A stretch of 64,000 nucleotides of DNA. Origin: Erythrobacter crassostreae. GTDB taxonomy: Bacteria; Pseudomonadota; Alphaproteobacteria; Sphingomonadales; Sphingomonadaceae. The translations under genes and the position numbers were made by a program. Below are positions 12,545 through 27,330 of the stretch, piece by piece; within the stretch, counting starts at the first letter, position 1; every line of letters starts with the position of its first letter. Below the pieces are notes generated by a model. That model saw only the letters and a program-made list of their open reading frames with translations, was not told the origin of the DNA and ran no database searches. The DNA lies in contig NZ_JAGSPC010000001.1 of assembly GCF_019204045.1 (NCBI RefSeq), positions 1 through 64,000 of the forward strand, written 5' to 3'.

Positions 12545-13462
12545 CTAAGACATAATTCCATTAGGCGGGTCTTTCGCAAGCAGCGCGTCCCATATCCTCT
12601 GGACGGTAGGGCGCTTGTTGTGGCGTGAGGAAAAAATCAGGATCTCCAGGTCGGCCACGTACTCGTCGGAGATCGGTCGAAACGAAGCGGTTTCACGGAC
12701 ATGCTCTGCGATGGTTTCCGGCAGCCAAGCGATCCCCAACCCTTCACGCGCTGCCGTGGCTAAACTCTCAGCCAAAGTGGCGCGGTAGACTGTCCGCAAC
12801 CTGCGTTCGAACGCCGCATTGTTGATCATGTTTCGAAGCACGCGCGACATTATCGACGTTGGCCCATATTCCAGCAGCGGTATCGGGGTATCGTTATCTG
12901 CATCCAGAATACCGGCGAACTTTGTCGTATCGCCATATGGAAGAACACGATCAGCCGAGATCACCAGTCGCGGGTAATCATCGACATCGACATCAAACGG
13001 AATAGCGGCATGATTGTAGCAGATGAAGAAGTCGCAAGTGCCGTTTCGCAAGGCGTAAAGATATTCTTCGATCGTTCGCGTTTCAGGAACAATGGCGGCC
13101 TCAAATGGAGGAACCTGTCTGTGAAGGTCCGCCACCAACCTAGGGAGGAAATTGAGCGCAAGTGTGTGAAGGCAGGCGATGGTGACACCACGCTCGCTGA
13201 TCCTGGCATAGTTCGCAGCCGCTGCCTGCGCTTCGCTGGCCTGCTTAATTATTGCACTGCCGCTGCTCATGAATTCAGTCCCTGCAGCGGTTAGACGAAT
13301 GGGATGTTCGGTGCGATCAACCAGTTCAGCGCAGGCCCATTGTTCAAGCGCTTTGATCCGTCTGCTCAGCGCCGATTGAGTTACAAATCGCGCCTCAGCG
13401 GCTCGGGCAAAGTGCCCAAGTCTTGCAACTGCAGCCAAATCCTCAAGCCATTTGAGCTCCAA
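12545..13462 (-). CDS. LysR-family transcriptional regulator
   Basis: 305 residues. The N-terminal winged helix-turn-helix is typical (LEDLAAVARLGHFARAAEAR, then TQSALSRRIKALEQW), followed by a LysR substrate-binding fold (TIACLHTLALNFLPRLVADL...GLGIAWLPE). It is transcribed away from the S9 peptidase gene, and the 127-base gap holds a TTC-N7-GAA dyad of the T-N11-A type used by LysR proteins. The arrangement implies that it controls the peptide/aspartate locus to its right and itself. The inducer is unknown; a peptide or aspartate is plausible from context. Confidence 0.9.
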   Translation of the reverse strand: MELKWLEDLAAVARLGHFARAAEARFVTQSALSRRIKALEQWACAELVDRTEHPIRLTAAGTEFMSSGSAIIKQASEAQAAAANYARISERGVTIACLHTLALNFLPRLVADLHRQVPPFEAAIVPETRTIEEYLYALRNGTCDFFICYNHAAIPFDVDVDDYPRLVISADRVLPYGDTTKFAGILDADNDTPIPLLEYGPTSIMSRVLRNMINNAAFERRLRTVYRATLAESLATAAREGLGIAWLPETIAEHVRETASFRPISDEYVADLEILIFSSRHNKRPTVQRIWDALLAKDPPNGIMS

Positions 13463-13507
13463 AACTCTTACCTTTCAAAGTCTTGCAATTTCCGCATTGA
13501 GGCTAAC

Positions 13508-13526
13508 GACTTCGGAATTTGAAGTC
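13508..13526. promoter_or_regulatory. LysR-type T-N11-A dyad
   Basis: GACTTC-GGAATTT-GAAGTC is a perfect 6+7+6 inverted repeat that contains T-N11-A. It lies 46 bases before the LysR start and 64 bases before the peptidase start, in the divergent promoter gap. Confidence 0.55.
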
Positions 13527-13589
13527 GACCGTGATTTCGTCTCTCGTTTGCCTGGGACAGCGGCCAGACGCGGCACCAAATTGGGGGAA

Positions 13590-15677
13590 ATGACCATCAA
13601 GCGAGGATTTCGTTACGGCAGCATGGTCGCAACAGGTTTGTGGGGGCTATGTGGATGGCCGGGACTGACAATGGCGGAGCAGATGCCTCAGAGTGAGCCG
13701 CTGCGTTCCGCGCCGCTCGGCCCGGTCGAATTCGTCGAACTGCCGCGGCTCTCCAACGTATCAGCCAGTGATGACGGAAGCTATCTGAGCTACATTCTTT
13801 CGGAACCTGATTGGGAAAAGGACGAGCGTAAGGAAACGCTCAAGGTACTTCGTTGCAGCGATGGCCAATGCGGCGAGACGATGCTTGAGCAGCTACCTGG
13901 AAAACCAGAAACCGGGGCCATCTGGCGGCCGGGTTCGCATCAGTTTGTGGTTTTGGCAGAGACCGGCAAGAATGATGATGAACAAGCCTATCTGATCGAT
14001 CCCGCCGCCAATGAAAGCGCCCGAATCACGGATCATGCAGGGGGAATACGGCAGGTCAGCTGGCTGCCGAATGGAACAGGGCTGGTGTTCGAAGGGGACA
14101 CCCCGGCAGAGGACGAATTTTCAAAGAAGTGGCGGATTGAAGCATTCGGCAGCGACGAGAGCGAAACGCTTTATCACCTTGATCTTGCAACCGGCGAGGC
14201 CCGCGCTGTGTTTTCGAGCGCGGGGATAATCGAGGGCTATTCGCTCTCAGAAGACGAAGAGCATCTGATCTTACGCCAGCGCTTCGATCCGCAAATTGAA
14301 GATCGCAATTCAGCGGAACTTTGGCGAGTTAGTCTGGTGAGCGGCGCGGCGCAGCAGCTCACCGACAACCGATATCGCGAGAATTCAGCGCGACTCTCGC
14401 CTGATGGATCCTCATTCGCTTTCATCGCCACTGTTAATGCGTTGGGCGAGCCCTATTTCGAGGACAATCTGTTCGTCCAGTCAGTAGGGGATGCTGAGCC
14501 GCGGCTGCTGTTGCCGGATGAGCCGCTCGAAGTGCTCGATATCGCTTGGGACAAGTCGGGCGAGGCGATCTGGTTCGTTGGCAATAGCGGGCTGCGCTCC
14601 CAGCTTTACCGCGTGCGGGTGAGCGACGGATCATTGACGCAAATCACTGATGGCGATCATGCCCTGCGTGATTGGCTCTACAACCCTTCTACCGGAAGAC
14701 ATCTCGGCCGCTTTGCCAATGGAGCGAAGCCGGGCGAAGTGTATGAAATCAATCCCCGCAGCGGAAAAGCTGAGCCGCTTTCCAACGTCTATTCTGCCGC
14801 CCTAAGCGAAGTGGATTTGCCAAAGCAGCGCAGCTTCTCTTGGCGAGCGGCTGATGAGCAGCGGCTTGAAGGATTGCTTGTTTATCCCCTCGGCTACCAA
14901 GAGGGCGAGCAATATCCCCTGGTTACGATCACTCACGGCGGTCCGCGCTCTTCTGCCCAATTCGGCAGCTGGAATGCCTCCCGCTATATCTCCGTGCTCG
15001 CAGGCCAGGGCTACGCCGTGTTCCTCCCCAACCATCGCGGCGGAACAGGCTATGGCGATGCCTTCATGCGCGACATGGTCGGCAACTATTTCCGCAACGC
15101 TCATACCGATGTGCTGAGCGGCGTCGATGCTTTGGTAGCCGAAGGTATTGCGGATCCGGACCGGCTGATCAAAATGGGCTGGAGCGCGGGCGGCCATATG
15201 ACCAACAAGCTGATTACCGTGACCGACCGATTTGCTGTAGCTTCGTCGGGCGCGGGCGTCGCTGACTGGGTCTCGCTATATGGTGAGAGCGATCGCCGCT
15301 CCGGCAGAACCCCGTGGTTTGGGGGAACGCCCTGGAAAGAGGGCGCACCGCTTTCCTCCTTTCGCTCGCAGTCGCCGATCTTCAACGCGTGGAAAGTCAC
15401 CACGCCCACTCTGTTTTGGAGCGGCAAAAACGACGTTCGCGTTCCTCCCACTCAAGGGATCATGATGTTCAGAGCGGTGCGTGACACCGGCACGCCGACC
15501 GCGCTCCATCTTGGCAAGGGGGAGCCGCACAATTTCAAGCGGCCAAGAAATGTCCTCTTCAAGATCAATCGTGAACTCGCCTGGTTTGCTGAGCACCTCG
15601 GACGGCCAGCCTACAAGCCGGACTTGCCCGCTCTTGAGCCGGACACCGATGAAGCCAAGGATACTGCCAAGCCATGA
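13590..15677 (+). CDS. exported S9 (prolyl oligopeptidase-family) peptidase
   Basis: 695 residues from ATG 13590, chosen because GGGGGA precedes it and a signal peptide (MTIKRGF...LTMAEQ) then begins. The N-terminal 400 residues show repeated beta-propeller strands (LSPDGSSFAF, DIAWDKSGEAIWFV). The C-terminal alpha/beta-hydrolase carries the nucleophile Ser in MGWSAGGH, Asp in SGKNDVRVPP and His in KGEPHNFKRP. The family releases dipeptides or acyl-amino acids from oligopeptides, here probably in the periplasm. The stop overlaps the start of the next gene by four bases (ATGA), so the carrier is translationally coupled. Confidence 0.92.
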   Translation: MTIKRGFRYGSMVATGLWGLCGWPGLTMAEQMPQSEPLRSAPLGPVEFVELPRLSNVSASDDGSYLSYILSEPDWEKDERKETLKVLRCSDGQCGETMLEQLPGKPETGAIWRPGSHQFVVLAETGKNDDEQAYLIDPAANESARITDHAGGIRQVSWLPNGTGLVFEGDTPAEDEFSKKWRIEAFGSDESETLYHLDLATGEARAVFSSAGIIEGYSLSEDEEHLILRQRFDPQIEDRNSAELWRVSLVSGAAQQLTDNRYRENSARLSPDGSSFAFIATVNALGEPYFEDNLFVQSVGDAEPRLLLPDEPLEVLDIAWDKSGEAIWFVGNSGLRSQLYRVRVSDGSLTQITDGDHALRDWLYNPSTGRHLGRFANGAKPGEVYEINPRSGKAEPLSNVYSAALSEVDLPKQRSFSWRAADEQRLEGLLVYPLGYQEGEQYPLVTITHGGPRSSAQFGSWNASRYISVLAGQGYAVFLPNHRGGTGYGDAFMRDMVGNYFRNAHTDVLSGVDALVAEGIADPDRLIKMGWSAGGHMTNKLITVTDRFAVASSGAGVADWVSLYGESDRRSGRTPWFGGTPWKEGAPLSSFRSQSPIFNAWKVTTPTLFWSGKNDVRVPPTQGIMMFRAVRDTGTPTALHLGKGEPHNFKRPRNVLFKINRELAWFAEHLGRPAYKPDLPALEPDTDEAKDTAKP

Positions 15678-16897
15678 TTACCAATGACAGCGTTATTCTC
15701 GGCCTGCTTGCCGCAGTGCTCCTCTTTGTTGGACTGACCCGTCAGCTCGGCGGCGGATGGCAGAAATTCTACACTTTCGTTCCGGTGATCCTGGTTTGTT
15801 ATCTTGTGCCATCTTTGATGCGGACGTTCGGATTGATCGACACCTCGGAATCGAACCTGTGGCCGATTGCAAAGGACTACTTCCTGCCAGCAGCCCTCGT
15901 TCTGCTGACGCTGTCGATCGATATGAAGGCGATTTTGGGACTTGGTCCCAAGGCGCTGATCATGTTCTTCACCGCCACTATTGGTATCGTTATCGGCGGG
16001 CCGATCGCGCTTTGGATCGTGGTGCAGTTTGACCCGAGCATCCTTGGCGAAGGCGAAAATGCTGCCTGGCGAGGTCTTGCGACGCTCGCGGGCAGCTGGA
16101 TTGGGGGCGGTGCTAATCAGACGGCTATGCTCGAAATCTACGGCTACAATCCGGAGCGCTATGCGGCACTGGTAGCGGTCGACATTATCGTTGCAAATAT
16201 CTGGATGATCTTCCTGCTTTATGGTGCAGGCGCCCCCGAAAAAATCGATCGCTGGCTGAAGGCTGATACGTCGGCGATTGAGCGGCTGCGCGATAAGATG
16301 GCCGATTACAGCGCCTCGGTCGAACGCACCACTACAGCCAATGACTGGATGGTTTTGGGAGGCTTCACCCTAGCGGCAGTTGGGCTGTCGCATCTGGGCG
16401 GCGGAGCCATTGCAGCGCTGTTTGAGCAAGCATTCTCAAGCAGCGACGGCGTGCTTGCCAGCAAGTTCTTTTGGGTGGTTGTAATCGCCACGACCATCGG
16501 TTTGGGCGCAAGCTTCACCCGCGCCCGCGATCTCGAAGGAGTAGGCGCCTCAAAACTCGGGACCGTGTTCATATTCCTGCTGGTTACCGTAATTGGCACC
16601 AAGATGGACATTCTTCAGTTGGGCGATGCGCCCTCGTTCTTCGCGATTGGCATTATCTGGATGCTGATCCACACCACGCTTCTCTTGATCGTCGGTAAGA
16701 TCATCCGCGCGCCGTTCTTCTTCATCGCCGTGGGCAGCAAGGCTAACGTCGGAGGCGCGGCATCCGCGCCGGTTGTGGCTGGTGCCTTTCACCCCGCCCT
16801 TGCTCCGGTGGGCGTGTTGCTGGCGGTATTGGGATATGCTCTTGGAACCTATGCCGCGATCTTAACCGCCGAACTCATGAGTATGGTTGGCGGATAG
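15674..16897 (+). CDS. DUF819-family membrane carrier
   Basis: 407 residues, with about ten hydrophobic helices and little soluble sequence. It resembles the YjcL/DUF819 family, which lies close to sodium:glutamate-type symporters and often sits next to peptidase genes. Glycine-rich loops (GSWIGGGANQTAM, GSKANVGGAASAP) occur in both halves, as in inverted-repeat carriers with two re-entrant elements. Context between an exported peptidase and an aspartyl peptidase suggests it moves dipeptides or acidic amino acids across the inner membrane. That substrate is inference; no member I can name has been characterised for it. Confidence 0.85.
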   Translation: MITNDSVILGLLAAVLLFVGLTRQLGGGWQKFYTFVPVILVCYLVPSLMRTFGLIDTSESNLWPIAKDYFLPAALVLLTLSIDMKAILGLGPKALIMFFTATIGIVIGGPIALWIVVQFDPSILGEGENAAWRGLATLAGSWIGGGANQTAMLEIYGYNPERYAALVAVDIIVANIWMIFLLYGAGAPEKIDRWLKADTSAIERLRDKMADYSASVERTTTANDWMVLGGFTLAAVGLSHLGGGAIAALFEQAFSSSDGVLASKFFWVVVIATTIGLGASFTRARDLEGVGASKLGTVFIFLLVTVIGTKMDILQLGDAPSFFAIGIIWMLIHTTLLLIVGKIIRAPFFFIAVGSKANVGGAASAPVVAGAFHPALAPVGVLLAVLGYALGTYAAILTAELMSMVGG

Positions 16898-16908
16898 GCT
16901 GAACCCTG

Positions 16909-17616
16909 ATGGCGAAGAACACCAGACACATCCTGGCGATGAGCAATTCCTCTGCGTTTTTCGCGGAGCCTTCCACGACGCCAGTATTAGCCAAATATCT
17001 GATGGGGCTCACGGGAAAAGACCGCCCGACTATAGTGCATGTTGGCGCGGCAAATGGAGACTCTGCGGAAAAGTCGGGCAAGTTTTTTGCTCTCGCGCAA
17101 ATTGCTGGGTTTGAGCCCAGACATCTGAACCTGTTCGCACTGGAAGATGGCAATCCAGAGACCTTCTTCACAGGCGCCGACGCGATCTATATCGATGGCG
17201 GCTCCACCAGAAATCTTAGGGCGCTGCTGAAAGAGTGGTCAGCCGATAAAGCGTTGAAACGTGCCTACAAAAATGGCGTCGTGTTGTCTGGCGCAAGTGC
17301 CGGGGCAAACATCCTGTTTGAATGGGGAATGACGGACTCGGTCAAGACGCGGATCGAGGCGACACGCGGCCTCGGAATACTCAAGGGCACCATGTCGGTC
17401 CATTCTGATGTTAGGGAAGATCGGGGTGAAGCGCTTGAGAAGCATCTCAACGGAATCGATGCGACATATCCGGCCTATGCGATCAATGATGGCACCGCGT
17501 TGCACTTTGAGAACGAGGTTTTGCATCATGCAATCTCTCTAAACGAGAGCGCAAATATGGGCGTGGACGAAAATGGTGAAGGGCTGATCCCTCACCCCGT
17601 TTCTCAAATTTCCTAG
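16909..17616 (+). CDS. S51-family peptidase (aspartyl dipeptidase / cyanophycinase type)
   Basis: 235 residues without a signal peptide. It has the S51 core: YIDGGSTRNLRALLKEW, corresponding to the GGGNT region, and the nucleophile elbow LSGASAGANI with the catalytic Ser. Other members are PepE, which cleaves Asp-Xaa dipeptides, and cyanophycinase, which cleaves beta-Asp-Arg polymers. At this length it is closer to PepE than to most cyanophycinases (often 250-270 residues or more). It starts 12 bases after the carrier gene. Its product aspartate is the substrate of the lyase encoded 3.4 kb downstream, making a consistent pathway. Confidence 0.85.
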   Translation: MAKNTRHILAMSNSSAFFAEPSTTPVLAKYLMGLTGKDRPTIVHVGAANGDSAEKSGKFFALAQIAGFEPRHLNLFALEDGNPETFFTGADAIYIDGGSTRNLRALLKEWSADKALKRAYKNGVVLSGASAGANILFEWGMTDSVKTRIEATRGLGILKGTMSVHSDVREDRGEALEKHLNGIDATYPAYAINDGTALHFENEVLHHAISLNESANMGVDENGEGLIPHPVSQIS

Positions 17617-17854
17617 AACGCCCGTTTCGACATATTATGACAATTCTATCGCAGTAAACAGCTTTTTGGGAGAGGTTGCTCGCTGAGTTTTGAAAAAATC
17701 TTTCAATTTGAGCATCTTGCGTTTTTGACATCGGTTAGCGCCTATTCGGAATTAGATGCCTCCCGCGATTTTGGTCAGCCTCTCCTTCCGACCTACCAAG
17801 TGGTGGGTCTTGTGCCGGGGCTGGCAAACGAAAATCAGACAGGGAGGTTTTGAA

Positions 17855-20800
17855 ATGAAACGATCGTACAAAACAGCAGCGAGCACATCAGCCCTTGCGC
17901 TGGCGTTGAGCATGAGCGCTCAAGCCGCAGCGCAAGACACCCAAGTTGCTGAAAACGAATCCACCCTGGCAACTGAAACGACGCAGAATACGATCGTTGT
18001 CACGGGCAGTCGGATCGAGCGCACAATTGAGGAGAGCGCTGTACCGATCCAGATTTTGGGCGCGGAAGATATCGAGGAATCTGGTACGACCGACCTTGCT
18101 GAGGCAGTGCTGCAATTGCCCGGCGTTTCTGAATCAATCTCCCCCCAGAGCTCAAACAACCTAATTCAGACGAGCGGGCTCTCAACGATCAGCCTGCGCC
18201 GCCTTGGAGACGACCGCACGCTGGTCCTCATCAACGGCAAGCGCGCGGTTTCCAACTCGGGCAACTCGGACCGTGTCAGCCTCTCGACCCTCCCTGCCGG
18301 TTTTGTTGAGCGCACCGAAGTGCTCACAGGCGGTATGTCGGCGGTCTATGGTTCGGACGCGATTGCTGGCGTTGCCAACTTCATCCTCGAAGATGATTTT
18401 ACCGGGGTTCAACTTGATGGGCGTTTTTCCGCTCCTGAGGCAAGCGGCGGCGGAGAATTTCGCATCAATGCGCTCGCCGGGACCGAGTTTGCCGGCGGGC
18501 GGGGCTACGCCTTGCTTGGGGTTGAGTATCGCAACGAAAACGAAGTCTTTGCGGATTCATCGCGGCCACTGACTATCGCCGCCATCGAGTTCGACGACCC
18601 GATCCCGTCAACCGGTAGCGATGGCTGGACCAACGAAATCGATGCCCCCGGCTGTTTTGGTGTCGATACTGATCGTCATTGCTTGCTGCCGAGCTTCAGC
18701 AGTTCGACCCCCGGCGGTGTTTTTGAAGGAGATGCTTGGTTTGTCGGCGGCCAATGGTTCAACGACCAATCACTCCGCCCTGCAAACCGGCCTGCCGGAT
18801 CTGATTTTTACACGGATTTCGATGGCTGGAATTTCCGGCCGGGACGCTCAAACCTGCCTGAACGCGAAATTCTCAACATCGCGCTCACGACGTCTTTTGA
18901 ATTCTCTGATGCAGCGACCTTCTCTTTCACGGGTGCATACTCGGATGTGGACACCACCTACTTCACCGGCTTCGAAACGCTGAACAGTGGCGACCGGCTT
19001 GGCGATGGCACGACCATTGGGAATATGGCTGCGGATCATCCGTTCATTCCGCCAGAGGTGGAAGAGACGCGCAGCGGCAGCGTGAGCTACAACAGGCGCC
19101 TGATCGAATTGGGCGAACAGGGCCGCGTAAACGACCGCCGAACCTTCCGCCTTATCGCCGATGTTACGGGCGACCTTAGCGATACGCTGCGATATGAAGT
19201 ATTTGGCACATACGGACGGTTCAAGCAGGAGCAAAACAACCCCAATGAATACAACTTCCTAAACGCTCGCTTTGCTCTCGATATTGAGGATGATGGAAAC
19301 GGCGGCTTCCAATGCGTTGACGCAGATGCACGGGCCGATGGCTGCGTCCCGCTCGATATCTTTGGCGAAGGCACGATCAGCCAAGGTGCGGCAGATTACA
19401 TCCGCTACAACGGATATGGCGAGCAGGTCCGCCAGCAGTACACCGCTGGCGGATTTGTCTCAGGTACATTGTTCGACATGCCGGCGGGCGAGCTCAAGTT
19501 CGCAGCTGGCGTGGAATGGCGCCGTGAAAGCCAAAATACCGATGGCGATCCGGACGGTGACTTGTTTGCTGGCGTAAACGGCGTCCGTGACCTCAATGAC
19601 GGCGCGACACGTGACACACCAAACTTTGCGCCAGATAGCGATTTTGACGTCACATCCTTGGCGACCTTCCCCAGCGTCTCCGCAAGCTACGAGGTTGTCG
19701 AAGCATATGCGGAGGTCGACATCCCGGTGTTTGAAGGTTTCAATGTGCAGCTTGCTGGCCGGATTGGTGATTACAATACAGTCGGCACGATCTTCAGCTA
19801 CAATGCCGGCGCCGTTTGGAAGATAAACGATGATATTGGTCTGCGCGCCCAGTACTCGCGCTCACAGCGCGCACCGAACCTGACCGAAATCTTCTCGCCG
19901 CCGCGGCCTGATGCCGATGGCTTGTCTGATCCATGTGAAGGTCTGCTCCCTGATGGCACTGGTCTCACCGGAATCGTGGGCGACGGCGCTGAAAATGCCG
20001 ATCTGGCGATTGTCGCGGCCAATTGTCTTACCGAACCGGGCATCCAGGCGTTCTTTGCTGATCCAGACAATGCGGGCGATCCGTTCACTGATGATCAGAC
20101 CGGCACTCAAGGGCCCAACGCTGGTAATCCCAATGTGCAGGAGGAAACGGCCGACACGATCACAGCAGGGTTTGCGTTCACGCCGACCTTCATTCCGGGC
20201 CTGACGATCGTGGGCGATTATTACCGGATCAAGATCAAGGATGCGATCACGTCGATTTCAACACAAAATACTGTATCGCTCTGCTACTCAGCTGATGATT
20301 TTCCTAATAACAAGTTCTGCGATGTGATCACGCGTGACGGCGTTGGTGCAGTCACCGAGGTTATCAACTTCCAGGAAAATCTCGATACCGAAGTGGTATC
20401 CGGTTTTGATGCGCAGATACTTTACCGCTTCGAGCCCGAGTTCATACCTGGCCGCTTCGACATCGATTTCCGCTACGCGCATTATTTCGAGCAAGAGGTT
20501 TCCTTTGAGGGGATTGGCGGTGAAACAATCACGTCGTCGCCATTGGGGGAAATCGGCGACGCTGAGGATGAGTTCCGTCTGCGCCTTGGATACAGCGACG
20601 GCGGTTTCCGTCTGAGCTACACCGTCACCTATACTGGCGGCGGGGTCGACGATATTGCTCAAAACAGCAATCCGACAGATGATCGCTATTTCAAGGTTGG
20701 AGATCAGGACTTCCACCGGATCTACGTGCGCTACGATTTCGGCAATGGTGATCAATTCCGCATTTACGGCGGCGTGAACAATATCTTTGACGATTACGGC

Positions 20801-20908
20801 GCCTTTGTTCCGACAGGCCTGAACAATGGATCCAGCTACAACCTTTCAAACAGTCTAGCGGACGTTCTGGGCCGCGAGTTCTATGTGGGCGCACGGGTGC
20901 GCTTCTAG
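17855..20908 (+). CDS. TonB-dependent outer-membrane receptor
   Basis: 1,017 residues from ATG 17855, preceded by AGGGAGG; a longer frame to 17756 would hide the signal peptide (ends SAQAAAQD). A TonB box-like TIVVTGSRI follows, then the plug domain (SVPIQI...DLAEAVLQLPGV, LVLINGKR, AVYGSDAIAGVANFI) and a 22-strand-type barrel ending in VGARVRF. The plug sequence is of the large sphingomonad class often linked to peptide or glycan import. It is separated by 238 bases from the S51 gene, so it probably has its own promoter, and it is followed by an intrinsic terminator. Peptide import is inferred from the neighbourhood. Confidence 0.93.
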   Translation: MKRSYKTAASTSALALALSMSAQAAAQDTQVAENESTLATETTQNTIVVTGSRIERTIEESAVPIQILGAEDIEESGTTDLAEAVLQLPGVSESISPQSSNNLIQTSGLSTISLRRLGDDRTLVLINGKRAVSNSGNSDRVSLSTLPAGFVERTEVLTGGMSAVYGSDAIAGVANFILEDDFTGVQLDGRFSAPEASGGGEFRINALAGTEFAGGRGYALLGVEYRNENEVFADSSRPLTIAAIEFDDPIPSTGSDGWTNEIDAPGCFGVDTDRHCLLPSFSSSTPGGVFEGDAWFVGGQWFNDQSLRPANRPAGSDFYTDFDGWNFRPGRSNLPEREILNIALTTSFEFSDAATFSFTGAYSDVDTTYFTGFETLNSGDRLGDGTTIGNMAADHPFIPPEVEETRSGSVSYNRRLIELGEQGRVNDRRTFRLIADVTGDLSDTLRYEVFGTYGRFKQEQNNPNEYNFLNARFALDIEDDGNGGFQCVDADARADGCVPLDIFGEGTISQGAADYIRYNGYGEQVRQQYTAGGFVSGTLFDMPAGELKFAAGVEWRRESQNTDGDPDGDLFAGVNGVRDLNDGATRDTPNFAPDSDFDVTSLATFPSVSASYEVVEAYAEVDIPVFEGFNVQLAGRIGDYNTVGTIFSYNAGAVWKINDDIGLRAQYSRSQRAPNLTEIFSPPRPDADGLSDPCEGLLPDGTGLTGIVGDGAENADLAIVAANCLTEPGIQAFFADPDNAGDPFTDDQTGTQGPNAGNPNVQEETADTITAGFAFTPTFIPGLTIVGDYYRIKIKDAITSISTQNTVSLCYSADDFPNNKFCDVITRDGVGAVTEVINFQENLDTEVVSGFDAQILYRFEPEFIPGRFDIDFRYAHYFEQEVSFEGIGGETITSSPLGEIGDAEDEFRLRLGYSDGGFRLSYTVTYTGGGVDDIAQNSNPTDDRYFKVGDQDFHRIYVRYDFGNGDQFRIYGGVNNIFDDYGAFVPTGLNNGSSYNLSNSLADVLGREFYVGARVRF

Positions 20909-20930
20909 GTTACCGCTGTGCTGAACACGA

Positions 20931-20965
20931 AACACTCCGCTGGTCAGGGACTAGCGGGGTGTTTT
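20931..20965 (+). terminator. intrinsic terminator after the TonB receptor gene
   Basis: AACACTCCGCT pairs with AGCGGGGTGTT around a 9-base loop and runs into TTTT. It separates the receptor gene from the aspartate ammonia-lyase gene. Confidence 0.8.
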
Positions 20966-20996
20966 CATATTCTGACCTCATATTGGAGAAGCGCCG

Positions 20997-22379
20997 ATGG
21001 CTAAGCACACGCACATACGGCTTGAGTGCGATTTTCTTGGCGAAATATCGCTCCCTGCAAGTGCTTATTACGGCGTCGAAACAGCCCGCGCGCTTCAAAA
21101 TTTTCCGATAACCGGGATTGCTATCAAGCAAATGCCCGAACTGATCACAGCCTTGGCCTGGATCAAAAAAGCTGCTGCCCGGACGAATTCGTCTGCGGGC
21201 CTTTTGCAAGATGACGTCGCCGCTGCAATCGCACAGGCTTGTGATGAGATTCTGGGCGGACAAATGCGGGATCCCTTTGCAGTTGATGTGATCCAAGGCG
21301 GCGCTGGCACCTCTACAAACATGAATGCAAACGAAGTGATTGCTAACCGGGCAGGCGAGCTGCTGGGCGATCGGCCAGGCAGCTACAAGAAGGTCCACCC
21401 GAAAGATCATGTGAACATGGCGCAGTCGACCAACGACGTTTATGCATCAGCGATCCGCCTCACCATAGTTCAGCGCAATCAGCACCTCATTGATGCGCTG
21501 CGTGGCTGTGTTGCAATGTTCACCAAGAAGGCAGACGAGTTCGCGCACGTTCACAAGATTGGCCGAACGCAGTTGCAAGACGCAGTGCCTATGACGGTGG
21601 GGCAGGAAATGCGCGGATATGCGACCGCTTTGGGTGAAGATATCGAACGTCTCATTGAGATTGAGAGCCTGTTTCTCGAAATCAATATGGGCGGAACCGC
21701 AATCGGCACCTCAATCGGTGCAAGTGAATATTACCAGACGCATATCGTGCAAGAATTGGCCCGGGTTTCTGGCCTGCCTGTGGTCAGCGCGGCCGACAAG
21801 ATTGAGGCGAGCTGGGATACTGGGGCGTTCGTGCTCTACAGCGGTGTTCTGAAGCGTATCGCGACCAAGCTCAGCAAGATTGCCAACGATCTTCGCTTGC
21901 TGTCCAGCGGCCCTGTTGGCGGCTTCGGTGAACTAAGGCTTCCGCGCCGCCAGCCCGGCTCATCAATCATGCCTGGGAAGGTCAACCCCGTCATTCCCGA
22001 AGTGGTCAATCAGGCCTGTTTCCGGATATTTGGCGCTGATACGACGGTAACCTTCGCGGCAGAGTCAGGGCAGCTTCAACTCAACGCAATGGAACCCGTT
22101 ATCATCTGGTCGATCTATGAGAGCTCGACGGCATTGATCGCGGCGCTTGAGACCTTCGCCAAAAATTGCATCGGCGGGATTGAGGTTGATGAGCAGCGCT
22201 GCTCCGCTTTGTTATCAGCCAGCACTGCGCAGGTGACAGCGCTTTCGCCGATAATCGGTTATGCCAAGGCTGCGCGCGTTGCCGAAGCAATGACCGATCG
22301 CTCGCTGACGATTGAACAGGCCCTGCGTGAGACTGTGCCCGATCAAACAGAAACCGTTTTGGAAGAATTGCTCCGCTAG
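20997..22379 (+). CDS. aspA: aspartate ammonia-lyase
   Basis: 460 residues, the normal length for the aspartase/fumarase superfamily. It converts L-aspartate to fumarate and ammonia in the cytoplasm. Superfamily signatures are present: AQSTNDVYAS, GRTQLQDAVPMTVGQE (this TQLQDAVPM form matches aspartases, whereas fumarases have THLQDA) and the mobile loop GSSIMPGKVNP with its catalytic Ser. GGAGAAG precedes the ATG. It completes the chain of peptidases upstream by feeding aspartate carbon into the TCA cycle. A fumarase identity is the less likely alternative. Confidence 0.92.
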   Translation: MAKHTHIRLECDFLGEISLPASAYYGVETARALQNFPITGIAIKQMPELITALAWIKKAAARTNSSAGLLQDDVAAAIAQACDEILGGQMRDPFAVDVIQGGAGTSTNMNANEVIANRAGELLGDRPGSYKKVHPKDHVNMAQSTNDVYASAIRLTIVQRNQHLIDALRGCVAMFTKKADEFAHVHKIGRTQLQDAVPMTVGQEMRGYATALGEDIERLIEIESLFLEINMGGTAIGTSIGASEYYQTHIVQELARVSGLPVVSAADKIEASWDTGAFVLYSGVLKRIATKLSKIANDLRLLSSGPVGGFGELRLPRRQPGSSIMPGKVNPVIPEVVNQACFRIFGADTTVTFAAESGQLQLNAMEPVIIWSIYESSTALIAALETFAKNCIGGIEVDEQRCSALLSASTAQVTALSPIIGYAKAARVAEAMTDRSLTIEQALRETVPDQTETVLEELLR

Positions 22380-22445
22380 CCCGGAGCTGCACGGTCACCG
22401 AGCCGAGATGTGTGGGATTCTGTCAAACCTTAGAGGATTGAACTG

Positions 22446-23858
22446 ATGAATGGACTGGAAGCGACAAACGAGACCCAGGAGCCGGAGTTCGGCTCTCTGT
22501 CGGATCGCATCGCCGAGAAATGCGGCGAAGTCAGCGTCGGATCTTCGAATGTCGCTGGCTTGCTGCTGGGTGTCATTGAATCTTCTGATCTCCTTGGCGA
22601 GAAACGCGCGAACCTCATCGAAACATTTGAGACGCTGGAGCAAAATCAGCGCAAAGCGGCGGACGCGTCTGACGAAGCACGTGAGCTGTCCCGGCAGGGC
22701 AGTGAGAAACTGTCACAGAGTATCGGTCTGATCGGAACCGCGCTTACCGACATATCCTCCCTGCTCGAATTGGTGGGGACGCTCGAAAAGCATGTCATTG
22801 GTTTTACCGCTGCGCTGGAGCAGGTGCGCCATAGCACTAGCCAGATCGACCAGATCGCTGAGACAACCGGCATTCTTGCGCTCAACGCATCCATTGAAGC
22901 GGCCCGTGCAGGTGAAAAGGGCAATTCCTTTTCTGTCGTCGCCGCGGAAGTGAAGGGCTTGGCTGCGGATACGAGCAGAGCGACAGCTGAAATCAGTGCA
23001 ACAGTGGAGCAGTTTACCGGCGAGGCCCAGGAATTGATCGGGAATATCGAACTTGGTGCACGCACGAGTGAGAAGGCGCGAAATTCGGTCAGCCGGATTG
23101 AGACGACGGTGTCCGATGTGGTTCAGGTGTTTGACGAGGTCGATCGCAATAACGAGCAAATCACCCGCTCTACCGGCGCAATAAGCGGAGAAGTCGCGAC
23201 CGCGCGGCAGGTCATCGAGAGTTTCGAAGTGGCCTCAGCGAAGAACGGCGAAGATCTCGGATCGGCGCGCACGCTGGTGGGTGAGCTTGAGGTTGCAGCG
23301 AGCGAAATGTTCGATTCCGTGGTCAAAGCTGGTCTGTCACCCAAGGACAGCGAGATGGTCGACATGGCGCTGCTGAACCGCAAAAGGGTGGAGGACGTGA
23401 CCATGGCTGCCATCCAGTCTGGCGAACTCAGCGCAGAGGCCATGTTCGATACGCAATACGTCGAAATCGAAGGCTCAAATCCCGTCCGGTACCGAACCCG
23501 CTTCACGCAGTGGGCGGATCAGAACTGGCGTCCCCTCCTTGATGAAATGAAAGCGGCCCATGCTGCTGTATCTGCAACAGTCTGCAGCGACATGAATGGT
23601 TTCCTGCCCACTCACCGGACAGAGAGATCACGCGAGCCGACGGGCGATTCGGTGCATGATGATGCCTATTGCCGCAATGGCCGAATTTCTATTGGCCCGA
23701 TGACCAAAAAGGCGAAAGAGAGCAAGGGCGACTACCAGATGGCCGTTTATCGGCATGTCGGAGACGGCGCGTCCTACAAAATTGTCCGAAACGTCTACGT
23801 ACCGCTCATTATTGATGGGCAGCGCTGGGGCGATGTTGAGCTCGCCTACAGCCTTTAG
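22446..23858 (+). CDS. soluble methyl-accepting chemotaxis-type protein with C-terminal sensor region
   Basis: 470 residues with no membrane segment. Residues about 60-290 form the long antiparallel coiled coil of chemoreceptors; the hairpin tip is NASIEAARAGEKGNSFSVVA. The C-terminal part (about 320-470) is separate and ends in YVPLIIDGQRWGDVELAYSL, a pattern often found at the end of cytosolic receptors as a small sensory fold. No CheA/CheW genes are nearby. AGAGGAT precedes the ATG, 66 bases after the aspA stop, so co-transcription with aspA is likely. It may sense a metabolite of the aspartate pathway; that link is inferred from position only. Confidence 0.85.
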   Translation: MNGLEATNETQEPEFGSLSDRIAEKCGEVSVGSSNVAGLLLGVIESSDLLGEKRANLIETFETLEQNQRKAADASDEARELSRQGSEKLSQSIGLIGTALTDISSLLELVGTLEKHVIGFTAALEQVRHSTSQIDQIAETTGILALNASIEAARAGEKGNSFSVVAAEVKGLAADTSRATAEISATVEQFTGEAQELIGNIELGARTSEKARNSVSRIETTVSDVVQVFDEVDRNNEQITRSTGAISGEVATARQVIESFEVASAKNGEDLGSARTLVGELEVAASEMFDSVVKAGLSPKDSEMVDMALLNRKRVEDVTMAAIQSGELSAEAMFDTQYVEIEGSNPVRYRTRFTQWADQNWRPLLDEMKAAHAAVSATVCSDMNGFLPTHRTERSREPTGDSVHDDAYCRNGRISIGPMTKKAKESKGDYQMAVYRHVGDGASYKIVRNVYVPLIIDGQRWGDVELAYSL

Positions 23859-23896
23859 TCGAGCATCTAGCAACTGTACCTATACGTGTGATTGAG

Positions 23897-23928
23897 AAAG
23901 AAACGACGGCTCAAGCCTGTTTCTTTTT
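23897..23928 (+). terminator. intrinsic terminator after the chemoreceptor gene
   Basis: AAAGAAAC...GTTTCTTT arms enclose GGCT-CA-AGCC and run into T residues. It marks the right end of the aspartate locus before the mobile block. Confidence 0.75.
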
Positions 23929-24093
23929 CAGAGAGTTCTGGTCCCGAATTCGGGGCCCCATATCGCGCCTCCCAATCATATACTAGAACCATATTCATTC
24001 TCATGTTTGGCCGAAATGGCCTTGGAGAATGTCCGCTATTGTGCGCTAAAATATTGGATCGCTATGTCTGGGACTGGGGCGCATTCCCGACAT

Positions 24094-24651
24094 TCATTCC
24101 TTCACCGTCCACCACTCCGGCCAATTTACCTTGTGCGGCGTCCGGGTGGCCGCCCAGACCTCGCGCTGCTCTTCTTCGGTGAGCCGCTCTTCGCCAAGCC
24201 GCTCGAGCGCGGCCTCAACGATCCAAGGATTGAGCTCCCACCTCACTCGGGTTTCATCCTGCGGATATTTGAGTTTGGCAATGCCAAGGGTTTCGAGGAT
24301 TGCATCAACGCCGCTGGCGACTGATTTAAGTATGATCTTTGTTATCGGAGAGCCGCTGCGATCGCCCCTGGCCGCTCGAGCTCCTTCGATAGCCTCAAGC
24401 GATGCGCGCGCCGCGGCGCTGTCTCCCGCGAGCCCTTTCTGGGTCAGTTGTAGAAGGAATGCCTCGGCAGCCGTGACCCGGCGTTCGCGGCCCTCCTCGC
24501 GGATTGTGACCATCTGGCCAAGCACGCTGTCATAGGGAACTTCGCGGTGACGGTTTTTCGGCCGGCCGCGCGGATTGCCGGACTGCCCCTTACGGAACCG
24601 ATTTGCCTGTGGCGGTTGCCCGTATCCCGAAGGTTCTGGTGCGCTCATCAA
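24094..24651 (-). CDS. DUF5681 protein (copy 1)
   Basis: 185 residues. The N-terminal motif RFRKGQSGNPRGRPKNR is the DUF5681 signature, a basic stretch likely to contact nucleic acid. The remainder is helical and ends in an acidic, Trp-rich tail (WPEWWTVKE). Function is unknown; the family occurs in prophage-like regions beside ParB-type methyltransferases. The start codon overlaps the stop of the upstream DUF5681 gene by four bases. It is related to that neighbour over the KGQSGNP motif and the following 70 residues, so a tandem duplication is likely. Confidence 0.8.
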   Translation of the reverse strand: MMSAPEPSGYGQPPQANRFRKGQSGNPRGRPKNRHREVPYDSVLGQMVTIREEGRERRVTAAEAFLLQLTQKGLAGDSAAARASLEAIEGARAARGDRSGSPITKIILKSVASGVDAILETLGIAKLKYPQDETRVRWELNPWIVEAALERLGEERLTEEEQREVWAATRTPHKVNWPEWWTVKE

Positions 24652-25169
24652 CTATGACCTCGCGGCCAGCGGATCGTGTCAGCATCGAAGGTGAAGAACT
24701 TCATGTCGCCCACATCTTTTGCTGTAAATCTCTTGCTCTTCGCGCGGGTGAGAGCGGCCTGCGCAGCCCAAGCCATCAGTTTCCACCTGCTCGGCATAGC
24801 AGCTTCAGGTTCGGAAATGCCAAGGATGCGCATGGCTTCATTGGCATTTTGCGCGCCATGATGACCCTCCAATGCGATTGGAGTTGGCGGCGAGCCGTTT
24901 TTCTTAGCCAGCGCTGCCTCACGCTTTTCGATCATCTTCAGCACTTTACGGATCGCCATGCGCTTACCTGCAAACGCATCTTTGAGCGTTTGCTGCTGCA
25001 GCGCCTCCTCGACTGTCGCCTCGCGCTGCTTGCCATAGCGCGCCGTTATCAGCGTCTTATCGAGAATGATCTCGAACGCCGAGATGTTTGGGCGGCGCGG
25101 TTTTGGGGGCCTGCCTTTGGGATTGCCGGACTGGCCTTTGGTGAACCGAGTGCTTGCGCCCTTGCTCAT
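24648..25169 (-). CDS. DUF5681 protein (copy 2)
   Basis: 173 residues. It begins with RFTKGQSGNPKGRPPKPRRP, the DUF5681 signature, followed by a helical region (AFEIILDKTLITARYGKQRE...LKMIEKREAALAKK). It shares the layout of the 185-residue protein encoded just downstream. Its start overlaps the methyltransferase stop (ATGA), so all three minus-strand genes form one translationally coupled unit. A role in DNA recognition or packaging of the element can only be guessed from the basic motif and context. Confidence 0.8.
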   Translation of the reverse strand: MSKGASTRFTKGQSGNPKGRPPKPRRPNISAFEIILDKTLITARYGKQREATVEEALQQQTLKDAFAGKRMAIRKVLKMIEKREAALAKKNGSPPTPIALEGHHGAQNANEAMRILGISEPEAAMPSRWKLMAWAAQAALTRAKSKRFTAKDVGDMKFFTFDADTIRWPRGHS

Positions 25170-26488
25170 TCAGCAGCCTCCAGTTTGTCTCCGCCGTCAT
25201 TATCAGCGCGGTGGACCAGCTGCGGCTCCTTGCCAGTGATCTGCGTCCAGCGTGTCATCGCCACATCGACATAGGCTGGATCAATATCCAGACCGCGGAA
25301 GGCGCGGCCGACCCGCTCAGCAGCGATCAGGCTGGTGCCTGAGCCAAGGAAGATATCAAGCACCAGCTCGCCCTGCTTAGTCACATCGCAGATTGCATCG
25401 GCAACCATTGCAACAGGCTTGACCGTGGGGTGCAGCGCCAAGTCCTCACGCCGCGATCCGCGCATCGAGTTGACGCTAGGATAGTCCCAGACATTGGTAC
25501 GGTAACGGCCGTGCTTTCCAAGCTCGACTGTATTGGTGTGCGGCTCATCTCCAACCTTATAAACAAACACCATCTCGTGCTTGGAGCGGTAGAGCGACCC
25601 CATTCCGGCATTGCTTTTGTTCCAAACGCAGATGTTGAGGAGCTTGCCGTAAACTTCGCTGACCGACGCGGTGACATCATCCATGTGCCGCCAGTCCATG
25701 CAGACGAAGTGAACTGCGCCGTCACGCGATACTTGGGAGCAAGCGCCCAGCGTATCGGAGAGGAACGTGCGGAACTCGTTCTCGCTCATCTCGCCCGACG
25801 CCATCGCAAACTCGCGGTGGCGGCCAACCGCGTTGACGTGGCCATTGATCTTCACATTGTAGGGCGGATCGAGAAACGCGCAGTCAATCTGCGCATCTTC
25901 ACCGATAATCTGCTGAAGAAAGGCGGCATCGCGGCCATCGCCGCAGCCAATCCGGTGTTCGCCCAGCTGCCAGATATCGCCAAGGCGGGCGCGCGGCTCG
26001 GTAGGCACCTCAGGAATTACTTCATCATCAGGATCCGGGCTATCTGCAAGCACGACGTCAATCTCGCCTGAGCTAAATCCGGTCAGGCCCAGATCAATGT
26101 CGATCTCAGGCATGGACAGATCAGCCAGCTCTAGCTTCAGGATTTCCATATCCCAGCCTGCATTGAGCGCGATCTTGTTGTCCGCGAGCCGGAGGGCTTT
26201 TTTCTGAGCCTCGCTTAGATCATTAAGCTCAATGACGGGAACTTCAGCGAGCCCCATCTCTTTCGCGGCCCGCAATCGGCCATGGCCGGCAATCAGATTA
26301 CCCTTCGGATCGGCAAGGATCGGATTGGTAAAGCCGAACGCCTTTATCGACGCTGCAATTTGCTCAACCTGCTTCTTGGAATGCGTACGCGCATTGCGGG
26401 GATCAGGGATAAGGCTCGCGGCCGTCTTGTAGATGACTTTGAGCGGGCGATCGGCAGTGGGGGCTGCCTCTGTCGGGTTTGTGTTCAT
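25166..26488 (-). CDS. ParB N-terminal domain / DNA methyltransferase fusion
   Basis: 440 residues. Residues about 15-105 form a ParB/sulfiredoxin-like domain with the GHGRLRAAKEMG motif. Residues about 170-430 form an amino-methyltransferase: catalytic motif IV DPPYNV near 208-213 precedes the SAM-binding motif FLGSGT near 395, the beta-class order. DPPY is typical of N6-adenine or N4-cytosine methylation. Such fusions occur in prophages and integrated elements, often without a cognate restriction enzyme; none is seen here. It probably protects or marks element DNA. The target sequence cannot be read from the protein. Confidence 0.9.
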   Translation of the reverse strand: MNTNPTEAAPTADRPLKVIYKTAASLIPDPRNARTHSKKQVEQIAASIKAFGFTNPILADPKGNLIAGHGRLRAAKEMGLAEVPVIELNDLSEAQKKALRLADNKIALNAGWDMEILKLELADLSMPEIDIDLGLTGFSSGEIDVVLADSPDPDDEVIPEVPTEPRARLGDIWQLGEHRIGCGDGRDAAFLQQIIGEDAQIDCAFLDPPYNVKINGHVNAVGRHREFAMASGEMSENEFRTFLSDTLGACSQVSRDGAVHFVCMDWRHMDDVTASVSEVYGKLLNICVWNKSNAGMGSLYRSKHEMVFVYKVGDEPHTNTVELGKHGRYRTNVWDYPSVNSMRGSRREDLALHPTVKPVAMVADAICDVTKQGELVLDIFLGSGTSLIAAERVGRAFRGLDIDPAYVDVAMTRWTQITGKEPQLVHRADNDGGDKLEAAE

Positions 26489-26619
26489 GCAAGAAATCTA
26501 CAGGAACAAAACGGGTATCCAAAGAGGGTAAATATCAGATTCGATGCGAATTTCGGGCATAAACCGTTGATAACCTGAAGCTGCTGGACTTCGGCGCCGC
26601 TTCGAGCATTGCTGCGTGT

Positions 26620-26635
26620 GCCCGGCGAACCGGGC
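26620..26635. other. short perfect hairpin in the divergent gap of the element
   Basis: GCCCGG-CGAA-CCGGGC, a 6-base stem with a stable tetraloop, about 50 bases before the DUF3489 start. No T-run follows. It may be a leader structure or an operator. Confidence 0.4.
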
Positions 26636-26686
26636 TTTCACCGGTAGGGCCGCCAATCTGGCGCCCGCATCAACCGGAGAACACCC

Positions 26687-26911
26687 ATGACAACCAAGTC
26701 AAAAACCAAAACGCCCACGAAGCTCGATGCGCTCGAGAAGCTGCTTTTGCGCGCCAATGGCGCGGCTATTACCGACATGACGAAAGCGACTGGCTGGCAG
26801 CAGCATTCTGTACGCGGCGCAATGGCAGGTGCCCTCAAGAAACGCGGGCTGATCATTACATCGCAGAAAATCGGCGATGTGCGGCGTTACTCTGCTGAGA
26901 AAGCAGCATGA
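26687..26911 (+). CDS. DUF3489 protein
   Basis: 74 residues with a basic start (TTKSKTKTPTKLDALEKLL) and a small winged-helix-like body (GAAITDMTKATGWQQHSVRG, then LKKRGLIITSQK), the pattern of DUF3489. It is probably a small DNA-binding protein. It is the first gene of a unit whose next members are DUF2924 and a serine recombinase, a trio that recurs in alphaproteobacterial genomes. Its stop overlaps the DUF2924 start by four bases. Confidence 0.85.
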   Translation: MTTKSKTKTPTKLDALEKLLLRANGAAITDMTKATGWQQHSVRGAMAGALKKRGLIITSQKIGDVRRYSAEKAA

Positions 26912-27330
26912 GGGGTGATCAAAACGTCAGCAATACAGAGCAGCTTGTGCGCGAGATCGAAGGCATGGATCTTGAAACTTTGCGCGGGTTCTGGAGGCGG
27001 CGCTACGGCGCCCCTCCTACCCTGCGCTCCGTACCCATCATGCGCATGCTGCTTGGATGGCGGGTGCAAACCGAGACTTACGGCGGGCTCAATGCTGATA
27101 CCCGCAAGGCGCTGGCCCGCACCGGCTCGCCGCAACCTGAGGGGCGCCGGCTTGGCGTTGGCGCGGTTCTCACCCGAAGCTGGAAGGGTAATGAGGTAAA
27201 AGTTGTAGTCGAGGAAAAGGGGTTCTGCTGGGAAAGTGAGCTGTATCCCAGTCTCTCAGCTGCAGCGACCGCAATTGCCGGAAGCAGATGGAACGGGCCG
27301 CGCTTCTTTGGACTGCGAGATGCAGCATGA
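26908..27330 (+). CDS. DUF2924 protein
   Basis: 140 residues matching the DUF2924 pattern: REIEGMDLETLRGFWRRRYG near the start, then MRMLLGWRVQTETYGGL, and GAVLTRSWKGNEVKVVVEEK followed by SLSAAATAIAGSRWNGPRFF at the end. The second half resembles a small beta module seen in phage and recombinase-associated proteins. Function is unknown; it is likely an accessory to the recombinase. It overlaps both neighbours by four bases, which argues for fixed stoichiometry with DUF3489 and the recombinase. Confidence 0.85.
   Translation: MRGDQNVSNTEQLVREIEGMDLETLRGFWRRRYGAPPTLRSVPIMRMLLGWRVQTETYGGLNADTRKALARTGSPQPEGRRLGVGAVLTRSWKGNEVKVVVEEKGFCWESELYPSLSAAATAIAGSRWNGPRFFGLRDAA

Follow-up and report, generated by a model that had tools for sequence, protein, structure and literature searches.

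A recurrent LysR-linked locus with a candidate role in peptide utilisation in Erythrobacter crassostreae and other sphingomonads

Background

This report concerns a locus of seven genes in Erythrobacter crassostreae, found within the first 64,000 nucleotides (nt) of contig NZ_JAGSPC010000001.1 (the whole of that stretch is called the window below), where a LysR-type regulator, an S9 peptidase, a membrane carrier of the DUF819 family, an S51 peptidase, a TonB-dependent receptor, aspartate ammonia-lyase (AspA) and a methyl-accepting chemotaxis protein (MCP) are encoded together. Several described systems resemble it in part. The lasso-peptide isopeptidase clusters (AtxE2) share with it an S9 enzyme adjoining a TonB receptor, but their regulator is of the GntR rather than the LysR type, and the S9 enzyme of the window misses the isopeptidase cut-off (NF033523, 110 of 400 bits). 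Dipeptidase E, or PepE (MEROPS S51), is like the window S51 in its fold (Z 21-22) and in its active-site Ser and His, whereas identity to the E. coli enzyme is 17%, the PepE cut-off is missed and the probable third residue is Asp where PepE has Glu. The Asp:Ala exchanger AspT and the citrate carrier CitS, both of the CPA/AT clan, are alike in fold to the DUF819 prediction over ~350 residues, but with an identity of 10-14%, in another Pfam family than DUF819 and, for AspT, with ~545 residues against 407. In the accessible portions of PMC9239234 and PMC11078827, MccG and Streptomyces Orf2 are of the same family and of the Ser-His-Asp triad type that is probable here, though in different gene settings; this likeness is one of description. 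Cyanophycin utilisation loci, as far as the available part of PMC10206079 describes them, join an S51 enzyme to a transporter gene, as our locus does; the latter differs in having no clustered isoaspartyl dipeptidase and no cyanophycinase by cut-off, and in having a TonB receptor, an S9 peptidase and a LysR regulator of its own. In the portions of the literature on TonB receptors, peptidases, LysR, sphingomonads and cyanophycin that could be covered, which leaves most subscription journals outside, we found no description of this locus.

The locus and its recurrence

The LysR/receptor/S9/DUF819/S51 locus is real and recurrent. In the window all seven genes lie where an earlier note on this DNA, made from the letters alone, had placed them, and each passes its Pfam cut-off (LysR, Peptidase_S9, DUF819, Peptidase_S51, TonB plug/barrel, Lyase_1, MCPsignal). 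The locus is a LysR gene and two transcription units, S9-DUF819-S51 and receptor-AspA-MCP, with the following features:

12545 to 13462, minus strand: LysR-type regulator (Pfam HTH_1 and LysR_substrate), divergent from the S9 operon
13483 to 13522, plus strand: predicted bipartite operator 1 in the LysR/S9 gap, TTGCaaTTTccgCAT-N13-TTcgGAATTtGA, with its T-N11-A core at 13484-13496
13590 to 15677, plus strand: S9 peptidase (Pfam Peptidase_S9, 146 bits)
15674 to 16897, plus strand: DUF819 inner-membrane carrier (Pfam DUF819, PF05684, 306.6 bits against a cut-off of 27)
16909 to 17616, plus strand: S51 peptidase (Pfam PF03575, 96.3 bits against a cut-off of 23.9)
17717 to 17756, plus strand: predicted bipartite operator 2 in the S51/TonB receptor gap, TTGCgtTTTtgaCAT-N13-TTcgGAATTaGA
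17855 to 20908, plus strand: TonB-dependent receptor (Pfam plug and barrel)
20997 to 22379, plus strand: AspA, accessory (Pfam Lyase_1; NF008909, 633 bits against 510)
22446 to 23858, plus strand: MCP, probably soluble, accessory (Pfam MCPsignal)
23893 to 23930, plus strand: terminator-like hairpin with a U-rich 3' arm (RNA fold -17.4 kcal/mol, z -3.2)

Two starts were corrected by eye, that of S9 to ATG 13590 (the alternative TTG 13452 overlaps LysR) and that of the receptor to near 17855 (MKRSYK...). S9 and DUF819 overlap by 4 nt and S51 follows DUF819 after 11 nt, while the remaining gaps measure 238 nt (S51-receptor), 88 nt (receptor-AspA) and 66 nt (AspA-MCP). The terminator with which the earlier note had closed the locus is borne out by the hairpin, which RNA folding picked up and a simple terminator scan did not list; 1 of 200 shuffles folded equally low. 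The host assembly (2.59 Mb, 84% complete) carries one DUF819 gene and one S51 gene, and the nearest named relatives of the host in our DUF819 scan are uncultured Erythrobacter.

Related loci were sought by two routes, a DUF819 scan of named genomes, from which the best 80 of 156 loci were kept, and an S51 profile over family (199), order (396) and class (385) genome sets. The profile matched 5 family genomes, 9 order genomes (10 loci) and 10 class genomes, these last being the window's own and nine distant ones. LysR and a TonB receptor accompany S51 in nine of the 10 order loci (the receptor being of the window type in eight), S9 in six, and DUF819 in six as an intact gene and in one as a remnant. 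Pooling the non-duplicate loci with both LysR and S51 gives twelve (the window locus, WIN, with L032, L033, L034, L036, L047, L117, L131, L157, L158, L159 and L160); tblastn finds a LysR relative in all twelve, and all have a TonB receptor, of the window type in ten and of another type in L033 and L034. S9 is present in seven, AspA in two (WIN, L131), MCP in two (WIN, L033) and intact DUF819 in nine, a count biased by L032, L033 and L047, which entered via the DUF819 scan only; L157 has a remnant. Among the eleven loci other than the window's, S9 relatives at 46-53% occur in six, receptor relatives at 57-88% in nine, and a 71% MCP relative, after the receptor, in L033 only. L036 and L125 were read by tblastn, and the lists of DUF819 neighbours leave out L044 and L132.

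The order of the genes varies. To the window's LysR/S9-DUF819-S51, receptor-AspA-MCP correspond LysR/DUF819-S51, receptor in L032-L034; LysR/receptor-S9-DUF819-S51 in L047 and L159, with the same gene set all on one strand in L036; LysR/receptor and a separate S9-DUF819-S51 unit in L117 and L131, the latter with AspA; LysR/receptor-S51 in L158; and LysR/receptor-S9-S51 in L160. The 4-nt overlap of S9 and DUF819 is common to WIN, L043, L117, L131 and L159. Of the 199 family genomes 28 have DUF819 (27 over the cut-off), and it lies directly beside S51 in four of the five genomes with S51, for which chance would be ~0.0015 if the genomes were independent, which relatives are not. The joint conservation on which the earlier note had hung its proposal is thus found for LysR, TonB receptor, S9, DUF819 and S51, which recur together in several arrangements with a common LysR-type operator. 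It does not extend to AspA and MCP, present in two and one of the 10 S51-found order loci; both are accessory in relatives, and to call the locus 'complete' was too strong, real as its seven genes are.

Some observations on gene content weigh against the reading as a peptide-utilisation locus. LysR, receptor and S51 are retained in L158 and L160, which have no DUF819, and in L157, which has a remnant of it; S9 and AspA are missing from four and eight of the 10 S51 loci respectively; and a window-type S51 is found by tblastn in only 5 of the best 80 of 156 DUF819 loci, among whose contigs several are short. A distant S51 in G028 (L161) has none of the other locus genes around it by tblastn. In the nine distant loci of the class search (L162-L170, some only 4-13 kb long) tblastn likewise detects no LysR, receptor, S9 or DUF819 gene of the window kind; a weak match to MCP lies 8 kb away in L162. 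In G004 (L036/L125) a frameshift and a stop interrupt the S51 gene. On the side of the reading, the S51-linked members of a tree of 48 DUF819 proteins do not form one clade. Starred branches force at least 5 changes, and S51 and DUF819 have come together or parted several times, although the label remains more clustered than most shuffles make it (4 of 500 as low).

Two loci deserve a remark of their own. G463 carries two copies, one with S9 and DUF819 (L159) and one without (L158). The whole core locus of L047 (3650-12043) sits on a contig binned as Opitutales, with a PF00144 beta-lactamase-family gene after S51, and since its DUF819 groups with sphingomonad sequences we take it to be misbinned or transferred.

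A shared bipartite operator

The firmest part of our reading, and a very probable one on the evidence of the DNA patterns, is that receptor, S9, DUF819 and S51 are co-regulated. A two-part LysR-type operator, which the earlier note had not noticed, precedes both transcription units (13483-13522 and 17717-17756), and an alignment of the LysR-side intergenic DNA of five loci, where the next gene is S9 (window) or else DUF819 or its remnant (the others), has ~100 conserved bases. The box lies 34-38 nt before LysR in ten of the twelve loci and, with a 1-nt longer spacer, in one further locus, while L036 has none there. The arms of the T-N11-A dyad pair at 4 or 5 of 5 places in seven of the twelve.

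A matrix built from LysR-side boxes only, with the locus under study excluded, detects a further box ahead of the other unit in each of the eight loci where a second unit was judged to start. The scores, with the number of 500 shuffles reaching them in brackets, are 20.3 in the window (0), 19.7 in L032 (1), 24.3 in L033 (0), 27.9 in L034 (0), 16.6 in L157 (2), 16.2 before S9 in L117 (6), 18.3 before S9 in L131 (2) and 19.8 before the receptor in L036 (0). In L033 and L034 the box precedes the different receptor type, and throughout it stays before locus genes despite changed gene order or receptor. A second half-site is found 11 bases on in 8 of 11 LysR-side and 7 of 8 second sites (in L036 in one reading direction only) and is missing from five other genome matches of the single box, counts that come from post hoc consensus strings and are descriptive; at the LysR-side sites of L117 and L131, and before S9 in L131, the second half scores best at another offset.

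As a search pattern the single box is too loose: with up to 3 mismatches allowed it occurs 94 times in the assembly, and its reversed control 64 times. Outside the locus the best site lies ahead of genes that by eye look lptB-like and rpoN-like; it has no second half, and the bipartite pattern was used for this reason. A hypergeometric value for the operator was set aside as circular. Drawn from the two window sites and allowed up to 3 mismatches, the bipartite pattern is found at those two places only in the 2.59 Mb assembly (reversed control, 0). Loosened, and with at most 1 mismatch, it finds 11 sites across 8 of the 396 order genomes (reversed control, 0), nine of them in six genomes with an S51 locus, which were partly the source of the pattern, and two elsewhere, in G131 and G452; the S51 genomes G463, G004 and G028 yield no match at this setting. 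In G452 only 107 bases separate the site from the end of the contig, too few to judge its setting. At the G131 site (L208:7313-13444), which had no part in making the pattern, a LysR gene (49% identical) diverges from a TonB receptor gene (47%) with a different S9 peptidase behind it, and the 18 kb examined there contain neither S51 nor DUF819. This locus shows that DNA sequence by itself, through the bipartite operator, is enough to recognise the pathway. The G131 variant adjoins a transposase-like gene, named by eye.

On the other side of the balance, the pattern was drawn up after the sites had been inspected, the LysR-side dyad of the window is imperfect (its arms pair at 3 of 5 places), and the matrix finds no box in five other gaps, where many shuffles of 500 do as well: before AspA (189) and before MCP (119) in the window, before MCP in L033 (327), in the 197-nt receptor-S51 gap of L158 (264) and in the S9-S51 gap of L160 (193). 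Nonetheless, because the operator is restricted to these genes in the host assembly and retained before them elsewhere, we regard co-regulated peptide uptake and digestion as well supported, with LysR as the protein predicted to bind both sites.

The S51 enzyme

The window S51 aligns with E. coli PepE at Ser130 and His165, both invariant in seven of seven locus sequences, and Asp194 is the probable third acid, fitting by position (Asp in six of the seven, Glu in L117) in a region where the PepE tail is unreliably aligned. In the portions of the papers available to us, Ser-His-Asp has precedents in an Asp-X dipeptidase (PMC11078827) and in MccG (PMC9239234). The window S51 stays below both named NCBIfam cut-offs, with 25.2 of 156 bits for PepE (PRK05282; four relatives, 20.9-24.5) and 30.6 of 126.6 bits for cyanophycinase (TIGR02069; the same four, 21.6-27.5), and it is therefore best called a separate subfamily. 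These misses count against an aspartyl peptidase, as does the report, in the part of PMC9239234 that could be consulted, that some S51 proteins (clade II) are without peptidase activity. Its predicted model (predicted local distance difference test, pLDDT, 85.9, from 5 sequences) matches S51-family structures at Z 18-24, among them pseudo-CphB 7uqv (23.9), CphB (22.8), Xenopus dipeptidase E (22.1) and Salmonella PepE (21.1); as a means of telling PepE from cyanophycinase the fold match fails, with Z 21-24 for both.

The earlier note allowed that the imported peptides are perhaps cyanophycin-derived; that the S51 enzyme is a cyanophycinase, or acts on imported beta-Asp-Arg, we consider very improbable. 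It is true that 7uqv is the best structure match (less than 2 Z from CphB and Xenopus dipeptidase E), that a cyanophycinase is the best match in PDB profiles, and that cyanophycin utilisation loci are known elsewhere (PMC10206079, in its accessible part). However, the TIGR02069 cut-off is missed, S-V replaces D-Q before the His in the alignment with 7uqv, and an N-terminus that by eye is not signal-like would keep the enzyme from meeting a polymer outside the cell. Nor does the locus encode an isoaspartyl dipeptidase; the nearest candidate noted is an Asparaginase_2-family gene ~190 kb off (C1:217237-218229), and IadA stays below its cut-off (19.9 of 331 bits) in an assembly that is 84% complete. 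The hydropathy scan is uninformative on S51 export because it reported a signal peptide for neither S9 nor the TonB receptor; judged from its N-terminus, the enzyme would be cytosolic.

The triad raises a further thought, that S51 is an MccG-like hydrolase detoxifying peptidyl-nucleotide antibiotics that enter through the receptor. MccG itself has Ser-His-Asp, five of seven tested stand-alone homologues protect according to the available part of PMC9239234, and Asp194 fits the third position, but here S51 comes with a receptor for uptake, a peptidase, a carrier and, in two loci, an aspartase, company that fits a nutrient and leaves detoxification hardly to be expected.

The DUF819 carrier

DUF819 is a widespread membrane family, and its regulated setting between two peptidase genes makes its substrate experimentally approachable. 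By sequence it has no solved relative, and a Pfam scan yields DUF819 alone at E 0.001, which places it outside the AspT family (Asp_Al_Ex). PMC8396727, in the portion we could consult, puts DUF819 in CPA/AT, and the fold predicted here agrees. The model (pLDDT 84.9, from 40 sequences) gives Z 26.5, 26.1, 21.4 and 20.9 over ~350 residues with four AspT entries, 15.6-20.8 with CitS entries and 12.7 with Na+/H+ antiporters. On the closest fold relative, CitS or AspT, Foldseek and VIA-align give different answers: searched with the same model, Foldseek puts CitS first and AspT 36th at E 0.18. The lead of AspT is thus not firm, only two of its four entries beating CitS, at an identity of 10-11%, while Foldseek favours CitS, and this has to be set against any reading built on it. 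We think it possible, if doubtful, that DUF819 carries aspartate or a small aspartyl peptide. Much the same caution applies to the bolder, joint proposal in which DUF819 moves aspartate or aspartyl dipeptides as an elevator carrier of the AspT kind and S51 forms a new Ser-His-Asp subfamily, evolved for this uptake route, in a pipeline for aspartyl peptides from outer membrane to fumarate that LysR controls through the bipartite operator; we offer it as a tentative model.

The direction of transport might also be the reverse, with DUF819 exchanging or exporting aspartate, or another amino acid freed by S51, and peptides entering by another way. AspT, the source of the highest structural Z, is an exchanger, and loci without DUF819 keep receptor and S51. 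The position of DUF819 between S9 and S51, overlapping S9 by 4 nt, suits the import of a peptidase product instead, and the model is about equally close to CitS, whose entry title calls it a sodium symporter, so we rate an outward carrier as unlikely.

The earlier note expected the locus to give DUF819 a substrate. Part of this stands, since DUF819 does lie between two peptidase genes in a regulated unit; its presence alone fixes none, because it is absent from two of the twelve loci and a remnant in one more. In the literature searched, as far as it was accessible, we found no substrate assignment for DUF819; in meningococci its gene adjoins an M15 peptidase gene, according to the portion available of PMC12671195. 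Related DUF819 genes adjoin POT peptide transporters in six loci (two Pfam-confirmed), with one or two POT-type transporter cluster genes directly upstream on the same strand (L067, L068, L074, L081, L093 and L108). DUF819 relatives also stand beside a cysteine-desulfhydrase-like gene (553 of 600 bits, below the cut-off) in Qipengyuania (L039:8900-9973) and beside a gene distantly like 3-hydroxy-D-aspartate aldolase (121 of 690 bits) in Parasphingorhabdus (L043:11311-12477). As a predictor of substrate DUF819 by itself was discarded, its wider Pfam neighbours including DAHP_synth_1, P450, outer membrane efflux protein and GlcNAc epimerase.

A route for peptides and the question of aspartate

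Putting the parts together, we think it rather probable that this is a peptide-utilisation locus under its own LysR which provides a route for peptides from outer membrane to cytosol. The TonB receptor would bring an oligopeptide into the periplasm, where the exported S9 serine peptidase would trim it; DUF819, as an elevator carrier, may then move aspartate or a small aspartyl peptide across the inner membrane, and the cytosolic S51 hydrolase would release aspartate, which in this strain AspA could convert to fumarate and ammonia. A soluble chemoreceptor would be co-transcribed in this strain, and LysR is predicted to act at the same bipartite operator before S9-DUF819-S51 and receptor-AspA-MCP.

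S9 has the residues S532, D615 and H647 (695-aa numbering), stays below the Dpp5 cut-off (NF053518, 181.5 of 900 bits) and, from a signal-like N-terminus seen by eye, is probably exported. AspA passes NF008909, 'aspartate ammonia-lyase', and stays below the stricter TIGR00839 (558 of 681 bits); PDB aspartases are among its top matches, and its nearest relative elsewhere in the assembly is 41% identical and unclassified. The chemoreceptor is probably soluble because no segment reaches a Kyte-Doolittle value of 1.6.

That the substrate is a peptide is likely; that the route is specific for aspartate is less so, with chances a little short of even. The S51 family, an aspartase in two of 10 S51 loci and the AspT-like carrier fold make aspartate plausible. 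The same architecture and regulation could, however, serve general oligopeptide scavenging, with S51 acting on other N-terminal residues or on many dipeptides and AspA as a local addition. The position of S51 outside both named NCBIfam families, the rarity of AspA, the closeness of DUF819 genes to POT transporters and other amino-acid enzymes, and the G131 variant, with LysR, receptor and S9 but no S51, all point that way. On the other hand the active S51 enzymes PepE, CphB, MccG and Orf2 act on aspartyl bonds (PMC9239234 and PMC11078827, in their accessible parts), AspA, shared among the twelve loci by the window and L131 alone, sits at different places inside the two, and the DUF819 fold is related to that of AspT; we therefore see general scavenging as a possible but not a favoured account. 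The earlier note had the locus importing and degrading Asp-rich peptides: import and degradation of peptides under joint control hold up well, while the aspartate part, with S51 below the PepE cut-off, is plausible and unproven.

Iron chelators and sugars are the usual cargo assignments of sphingomonad TonB receptors, and if the aspartyl-peptide route is true, peptides join them.

Neighbouring genes

Just downstream of the locus, at 24094-28916, lie two DUF5681-type genes, a ParB_N-DNA methylase gene and a serine recombinase. In L160, from ~3.4 to 7.6 kb past S51, there are a serine recombinase, a methylase of the same type and DUF5681-type genes, and by these shared genes the same kind of mobile element lies near the locus in two genomes.

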